Assembly (NCBI GenBank): GCA_002720865.1
Contig: PBIO01000014.1
Location: 682,001 to 746,000 of the forward strand
Length of the DNA stretch: 64,000 nt
Reading direction: 5' to 3'
Source of the DNA: Halobacteriovorax sp.
GTDB lineage: Bacteria > Bdellovibrionota > Bacteriovoracia > Bacteriovoracales > Bacteriovoracaceae
Shown here: positions 31,384 to 54,188 of the stretch, in pieces
Layout: every line of letters starts with the position of its first letter
Position numbering within the stretch: the first letter of the stretch is position 1
Position numbers and translations under genes: made by a program
The notes under the pieces: model-generated
Told to the model about the DNA's origin: nothing
Database searches by the model: none
The model's input: only the letters and a program-made list of their open reading frames with translations

Positions 31384-31453
31384 AGTGCCTGTTACCTTTT
31401 GGGACTCAAAGCGAAATAAATTTAGCAGTGTGTCCCAAAAGGTAACAGGCACT
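31384..31453. repeat. Perfect 22-bp inverted repeat (REP-like or foldback element)
   Basis: The left arm 31384-31405 begins AGTGCCTGTTACC and the right arm 31432-31453 ends GGTAACAGGCACT; they are perfect complements over 22 bases, with a 26-base spacer. The element starts three bases after the fliA stop codon. No U-tract follows, so it is not a classical terminator. It resembles palindromic intergenic repeats of the REP type, but no second copy is visible in this window. Confidence 0.8.
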
Positions 31454-52966: not shown

Positions 52967-53632
52967 TTGAAAAAGATTATACTAGCGGTCGCCCTTAGCT
53001 TTAGTTTCTATGCTCTTTCCTCTGAAACCTTTGTCAAAGGTGCAGGCTCTGAATTTAAAATGAATTCAAATGGAGTCTCATCAAAATTAAATATTTATAT
53101 TACGGAATCGAGCTTTACTCGACTTGGTATTGAATATCATTTCGCAACTTCGGGTCTAATTCAAAAACAAATGTGGCAGCAGTTTATCTTAGGTCTTAAT
53201 AGTGACGGACCTCTTAGTATGGAGGCTGGTTACGTAAAAACACCTGAGCTGAGTAAACCGGAGAAATTAACCTCCGAGTACTTAAATGTTAATAAAGGTG
53301 TAAAACTCGACCAATTCTTTTTCTCAAAGAAAAAAGAATTACAAAAGTATTTTATTGGTAATGAGAATATCGAAGTGCCGGCAGGAAATTTACAAGCGGC
53401 ACACTATAGAAAAAAGAATAACGGACAAGTTGTAGATTTTTGGATTAGTGAAAAAGTTAAACCTATCGGTATGGTAAAGCTTGTCTCAAAGAATCCAAAA
53501 GAAATGGCGCAAAATTACGAGATAGAGCTCGTCTCATTACTTAGAAATGTTAAGGCCACCATAAATCCTAAAGAGGCCAGACCGCTTACTGAAAAAGGTA
53601 AGAGCGCCCTTGCTATCCCAATAAAAAAATAA
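52967..53632 (+). CDS. Secreted protein of unknown function
   Basis: This 221-residue protein starts at TTG 52967 with GAAGGA upstream. A signal peptide (MKKIILAVALSFSFYALSSE) precedes a beta-rich domain (KLNIYITESSFTRLGIEYHF, ENIEVPAGNLQAAHYRKKNN, VDFWISEKVKPIGMVKLVSK). The last segment recalls DUF3108-like or lipocalin-like sheets, but I cannot assign it. Its stop codon touches the left end of the 298-bp inverted-repeat element. Confidence 0.75.
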   Translation: MKKIILAVALSFSFYALSSETFVKGAGSEFKMNSNGVSSKLNIYITESSFTRLGIEYHFATSGLIQKQMWQQFILGLNSDGPLSMEAGYVKTPELSKPEKLTSEYLNVNKGVKLDQFFFSKKKELQKYFIGNENIEVPAGNLQAAHYRKKNNGQVVDFWISEKVKPIGMVKLVSKNPKEMAQNYEIELVSLLRNVKATINPKEARPLTEKGKSALAIPIKK

Positions 53633-53929
53633 GGTACGCGTTTCTTTTTCCGTATTTCAACATCTTATCTGCTAAAAAAATCAGAATTGAATGAATAAAG
53701 TGAAGATGAAAAAGCCAGGTCTCAAACCGAACTCAAAGATCTATTTAGAATTTATGATTTAAAGAGGTTTGATTCCCACCGGACTGATTTTGTTCTAAAA
53801 ATAAATCAACTTCCCTATAGCGCGTCGATAAAACTTGGAGAAACCACAGTAACCTGTTAGCTCCTTGCTTACCTGGCTTTTTTCATCATGGTTTAAATAA
53901 CTGATTTCCGGAAAAAGAAACGCGTACCT
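53632..53929. repeat. 298-bp element with 21-bp terminal inverted repeats (MITE-like)
   Basis: The ends are perfect 21-base complements: 53632-53652 (AGGTACGCGTTTC...) and 53909-53929 (...GAAACGCGTACCT). A second nested pair lies inside: GATGAAAAAGCCAGGT (53705-53720) and ACCTGGCTTTTTTCATC (53871-53887), with AAATCAG/CTGATTT between. The interior has no convincing gene. The element fills the space between two convergent genes and touches both stop codons. It could be a non-autonomous mobile element or a large structured RNA. No flanking target duplication is clear. Confidence 0.75.
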
Positions 53930-54188
53930 ACTCGCAGCCACCGCAGGTGGGTTTTTCATTGTGAGATTCAACTTCTTCTTCAATTTCGGTTTTTAATTTC
54001 TCGCGATCTTTAGCGGACATACCAAGAGTTGCTCCGAGAGTTTCGGGCAGGCTCGGAGCATCTAGTGTTACTTCTATACCCATTTCTTCAAGCTCTTGCG
54101 CTTTAGCATAGGCCGCGTCGATTTCGCTTGGGGCGAACTCGTAAAGGATCTGGGACTCTGAATCTAGAAGTTTTATTTTACTTTCCAC
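53928..54188 (-). CDS. Small acidic protein with C-terminal CxxC
   Basis: This 86-residue soluble protein starts at GTG 54188 with GGAG seven bases upstream. It is acidic and helical (SEIDAAYAKAQELEEMGIEV, then DREKLKTEIEEEVES) and ends in KPTCGGCE, a CxxC at the very C-terminus that could bind metal or be redox active. No family is recognised. Its stop codon overlaps the right end of the inverted-repeat element; it is divergent from the receiver-like gene. Confidence 0.7.
   Translation of the reverse strand: MESKIKLLDSESQILYEFAPSEIDAAYAKAQELEEMGIEVTLDAPSLPETLGATLGMSAKDREKLKTEIEEEVESHNEKPTCGGCE

Follow-up and report, generated by a model that had tools for sequence, protein, structure and literature searches.

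A palindrome abutting two stop codons in a Halobacteriovorax genome as a probable pair of tyrosine-transposase terminal repeats around a trimmed MITE core

Repeats of Y1 transposases and the element in the window

The closest described systems to the element discussed here are the TIRtrons of Di Nocera et al. 2013, in which Y1 genes are flanked by long inverted repeats, their protein products being named TIRYT (PMC3733652). The TIRYT proteins fall mostly within subclass 2.1 of TnpA_REP (PMC6006769), of which a transposase with a C-terminal helix-turn-helix extension is a feature. A terminal motif, GGGGWSAS, is present in most, not all, of the published TIRs and is not obligatory (PMC3733652). 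REPINs and their RAYT proteins, with GTAG REPs (PMC3116915, PMC2817692), also tie an inverted pair of short repeats to a REP-type Y1 transposase, and are found downstream of genes. GTAG REPs often provide the TAG stop of the neighbouring gene (PMC3733652).

The locus lies in a 64,000-nt stretch (the window) of a Halobacteriovorax sp. genome (G000), where a first-pass annotation had described a gene-less segment of nested inverted repeats, able to fold into a long hairpin and with its edges set exactly at two convergent stop codons. All of these features are real. The element is 297-298 bp in length (53632-53929) and contains no gene. Its outer arms (53632-53659 and 53902-53929) are 28 nt long and 89% complementary, the outermost 21-22 nt perfectly so, such that 53633-53653 on the + strand and 53908-53928 on the - strand form perfect 21-bp inverted repeats, ~250 bp apart. 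Each of these is the core, termed type B, of a longer unit; that on the left is 36 nt in full, runs to ~53668 and includes an inner box, TTTCAnnnnCTTA, while that on the right starts at ~53893. Simple base counting gives a chance expectation of ~4e-6 per 64 kb for a perfect 21-nt pair within 300 bp, and by length the outer arms rank second among the inverted repeats of the window with spacing within 3 kb. The inner arms (53709-53720, + strand; 53871-53882, - strand), which lie within the MITE core described below, are 12 nt long and 100% complementary. Compared with shuffles, the fold of the whole element has z = -5.8 on the + strand and z = -6.6 on the - strand.

The left neighbour is a + strand gene of 221 aa (52967-53632), whose protein has no Pfam family and whose TAA stop (53630-53632) abuts the left arm. 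The right neighbour, of 86 aa on the - strand (53928-54188), ends in a TAG (53930-53928) of which the last base is the first base of the right arm. In other words, the two genes are convergent and each stop codon is touched by one arm. Elsewhere in the window, positions 31384-31453 form an almost perfect palindrome of 70 bp, with AGTGCCTGTTACCTTTTGGGAC... as its arms, that lies 4 nt past a TAA stop; its letters resemble the type studied here, and a related Y1 transposase may have a further repeat pair there.

The outer element is very probably a transposase-less inverted pair of TIRYT/TIRtron terminal repeats, the Y1 enzymes concerned being relatives of the RAYTs. As with TIRtrons, a RAYT-like Y1 gene is found between long inverted repeats, each of which is not palindromic alone, and the repeats are also dispersed without the gene, solo and paired, in G000 and in the sister species G001, mostly at gene ends. 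Unlike the published TIRs, the repeats have the motif GGTAC(G/A)CG..TTCCTTTT, GGGGWSAS being missing from the window arms and their relatives. Further differences are that the copies are few, that one pair holds a foreign MITE core and that orthologous sites differ concertedly in repeat type. The window element belongs to a known kind, that of TIRYT repeat pairs, has a trimmed MITE nested in it, and is unusual in that both repeats have changed together between sister species.

The repeat family, its Y1 genes and its stop codons

The outer repeat of the window arms has the sequence GGTACGCGTTTCYTTTTCCGG. A search of G000 for GGTACGCGTTTCCTTTTCCGG, allowing up to three mismatches, gives seven matches, and none for the reversed control pattern. 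Type B pairs are found in the window (53633-53928), at a site on contig C11 where the pair (B1) spans 1046 bp around an esterase-like gene, and at a site on C14 where it (B2) spans 413 bp around a 116-aa gene; a solo copy (B4) lies on C31. A variant, B-prime, with the sequence GGTACACGCTTCCTTTTGG, agrees with type B in 17 of the first 19-20 nt, apart from two transitions, and forms pairs on C19 and C20 of G000 and on C24 of G001, the latter genome also having solo copies. It had been proposed in the first-pass annotation that the lack of a second copy would speak against a mobile element. Copies exist, the arms recurring at three more genomic sites and the inner 184 bp at about seven, and that objection therefore falls away.

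Single arms (n=5) fold no better than shuffles and are therefore not palindromic REPs. Membership of the REPINs was rejected on this ground together with that of copy number, since the single repeat here is neither a palindrome nor able to fold, the arms are ~250 bp apart and there is a handful of copies (seven type B arms in the genome) as against hundreds. The window DNA gave only a 21-bp chance match among 59 relatives, and the orthologous element of G001 was detected with the variant repeat as the query, not with the window DNA. Searches of plasmids, phages, viral contigs and GTDB contigs found no relatives, the one pattern match, in a Clostridia MAG, being at chance level.

Reading of the flanks by eye shows no consistent target duplication at the B pairs. 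A composite 'cargo' transposon was rejected as a general property of these pairs, because the gene enclosed by B2 (413 bp) had its place there ancestrally; the esterase between the B1 arms (1046 bp), by contrast, is missing from both congeners and present in other genera. Beside B1, an aminotransferase-like gene (L067 5762-6883, on C11) runs into the repeat and ends inside it. Its homologue in G001 is part of a longer open frame of ~650 codons, from which it follows that the B1 site has been rearranged.

The connection to Y1 transposases comes from the B-prime pair on C19, the arms of which (25 nt, 100% identical on both sides) enclose the gene of a 210-aa protein with a Y1_Tnp domain and ~85 residues outside it. 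The best description of this protein is the NCBIfam model of the REP-associated tyrosine transposase, with E = 2e-18 and a match under the cut-off. Of the 33 usable Y1 loci in the bacterial family, 17 are flanked by inverted repeats that score better than all of 100 shuffles and are taken as significant. Most of these repeats start with GGTAC and others with GGTGCC, GGTTCC or GTGCC, the nearest to the window type being AGGTACGCGCGACCTTTTCGAAAATTCA (L160). A search for a transposase with the ends of the element had been proposed in the first-pass annotation; the one identified, the C19 gene, has the variant ends. In this assembly no Y1 gene turned up with ends of exactly type B, and the window arms therefore have as their partner either the B-prime transposase or a gene that is lost or was not assembled. 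Such an enzyme would recognise repeats of the GGTAC type, presumably in single-stranded form, and may thereby have scattered both monomers and inverted pairs of the repeat.

Contact with stop codons is a property of the family and extends beyond the window. Of 45 arms, 14 have the end of an ORF stop no more than 2 nt from their anchor G, as compared with a mean of 0.55 and a maximum of 5 over 2000 draws of a shifted-position null, with the provisos that some of the 14 arms are mutually orthologous, which brings them to about 11 events, and that the null treats insertion at a native stop and truncation of a gene by the TAG of the repeat alike. The contact recurs because the repeat end, TAGGTAC, can supply a TAG; the arm often has TA before it, such that TAG followed by GTAC itself gives the stop. 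The edge contact reported for the window is explained in this way for the family at large, and in the C19 transposase unit both neighbours end on the TAG of the repeat. Both window genes, for their part, end at the same codons in G002, where there is no element and the spacer is 377 bp; the window arms therefore lie at native stops. Inserts at gene ends would be tolerated because a stop codon is either preserved or provided by the repeat edge, (T)AGGTAC.

The nested MITE core

A genome search with the 298 bp splits the element into its outer arms and an inner 184 bp (53705-53888, - strand), which recur at about seven other places in G000 without the outer arms of the window, the window core being 84-90% identical to the other copies. 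These are the core of a ~226-bp element, MITE A, of which there are about 8 copies with 38-41-nt inverted ends, AAACTGACCTACTTGAATGGTGATGA, and with target duplications of ~9 bp that can be read in the flanks (GACTATTTA, TACATAATT, AAAAGAGGTTA). In addition, 27-29 nt of the MITE A ends are found at many contig ends, ~100 bp in from the edge, and continue there into either of two other sequences. These represent the left end and the right end of a multicopy IS that the assembler could not place and which breaks the assembly at C5, C14, C17, C18, C19, C20, C26, C27, C28, C31 and C32 of G000. One contig end runs into a protein fragment, PKKPSNIVKDGSYFRPSDGRRVQRFKCKFC. With ends common to the multicopy IS, a duplication of fixed length and no gene, MITE A is classed as a putative DDE-type MITE. 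The window copy differs from ordinary MITEs of this type in that it is without its own outer ~20 bp on both sides, other copies having intact ends, and in that it sits inside another element.

The first-pass suggestion of a miniature transposon relic was right in substance, given that the outer repeats are of the type which, inverted, flanks genes of Y1 transposases (IS200-like, REP-type) in this genome and bacterial family, and that the inner part comes from the core of a true MITE family with target duplications. It needs correction on two points, as there are two unrelated nested elements and not one, and as the outer of them belongs to a tyrosine transposase and not to a DDE transposon. 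The orthologous element of G001 has no MITE A-like core, which makes a gain of the core in the lineage of G000 probable. In this species, MITE A, which belongs to a different insertion sequence, would then have placed a copy inside the pair, and this copy would have lost its outer ends, giving rise to the nested palindrome. A second repeat pair surrounds a MITE A copy on C20 (81050-81394, L119), and two of about eight MITE copies inside such small targets looks non-random. On C31 (~133810-133862, L070) there is a ~53-bp MITE A remnant with both ends and almost no middle, just 3' of a stop codon.

Orthologous sites and the origin of the matched arms

Beside a 93%-identical homologue of the 221-aa protein, G001 has an orthologue of the window pair, with arms of the B-prime type. 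Five positions differ between the two species in both arms with the pairing kept. At one further level of detail, position 13 is T in both window arms and C in all other B arms, a change that is matched at this locus alone. The element interiors and spacer of G000, G001 and G002 have homology that is at most weak, and none is detectable between the G001 interior and the G002 spacer. The left arm of B2 is shared too: where G002 shows an ATGA stop/start overlap, a ~34-nt monomer is inserted at the same nucleotide in both G000 and G001. The outer pair of the window would have been at its site since before the split of the two sister species.

Comparison of the three orthologous arms by part gives a divided picture. 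Their inner parts agree between orthologues at 0.79, 0.79 and 0.93, against averages of 0.55-0.67 to other copies, with the caveat for the left window arm that its G001 counterpart has a closer inner match to an unrelated arm (0.86 at best) than to its orthologue (0.79). The outer 21 nt, in contrast, agree at 0.67, 0.67 and 0.76 between orthologues and at 0.90, 0.95 and 1.00 with B arms of the same genome. These values, from three arms at two loci, are suggestive of a mosaic in which an old site and an old inner part carry a new outer part. Since the same family-wide letters appear at all three arms, independent substitutions do not fit, leaving either repeated insertion at the same stops or switching in place.

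Several other accounts of the element have to be set against a TIRYT repeat pair with a nested MITE. A classical MITE with 21-bp ends, derived from a DDE insertion sequence, would be in keeping with the ends, size and absence of genes, but this reading is very improbable, as no IS with these ends was found, the flanks lack a consistent target duplication and it is a Y1 transposase that the variant ends enclose. The other first-pass reading, a conserved structured RNA, whether an RNA gene or a riboswitch-like element, has the stable fold in its favour but is next to incredible. An Rfam scan gave nothing above any gathering score and a tRNA scan nothing at all, the G001 orthologue shows no conservation of the interior, and the inner 184 bp, as a MITE core, have copies elsewhere in the genome. 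Very strong covariation, at 18 of 24 pairs, is seen across 16 inverted pairs, but most of these were chosen as inverted repeats, so it is not counted as evidence for RNA.

Two further proposals concern the arms more than the class of the element. The arms may never have formed one unit, being instead independent insertions of monomers at the stop of each convergent gene, with old intergenic DNA and a later MITE core between them. This is a real possibility, though short of probable: both arms abut native stops, with the same codons in the element-free G002, solo repeats exist, and the B2 pair encloses an ancestral gene with a left arm that is itself a monomer insertion missing from G002. Against it, the unit on C19, which is necessarily a single one, touches the stops of both its neighbours, and contact on two sides thus needs no two events. 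Alternatively, whatever its origin, the pair could be kept as a bidirectional 3'-end hairpin, a terminator or a stabiliser of mRNA, with selection for matched changes in the arms. The fold is very stable on both strands, there is no other terminator-like site between the two genes, the orthologous site has five matched double changes, and REP-like repeats are typically downstream of genes and probably transcribed (PMC3733652). Such a role is nonetheless unlikely, since solo arms that do not fold alone are also kept at gene ends, and since the matched letters of G000, position 13 excepted, are those of all its other B copies, unlike what local compensation would give.

Within the reading as a TIRYT repeat pair, the mosaic could mean that the Y1 system rewrites the outer 21 nt of both arms at inherited sites to the current type of the species, while inner part and position stay ancestral; this proposal is tentative and, taken by itself, rather doubtful. 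If true, it would amount to a transposase-guided conversion of the system's own old copies, by which dispersed inverted pairs are kept matched. As for the host, the element is most likely without essential function, and in both convergent transcripts, should they extend through it, it would form a long hairpin at the 3' end. What had been an unexplained palindrome becomes a probable member of a little-studied class, the TIRYT repeats, whose own TAG gives a concrete reason for the contact with stop codons. Moreover, the mosaic allows one to test whether RAYT and TIRYT proteins act on their repeats in place, and not only by new insertion.
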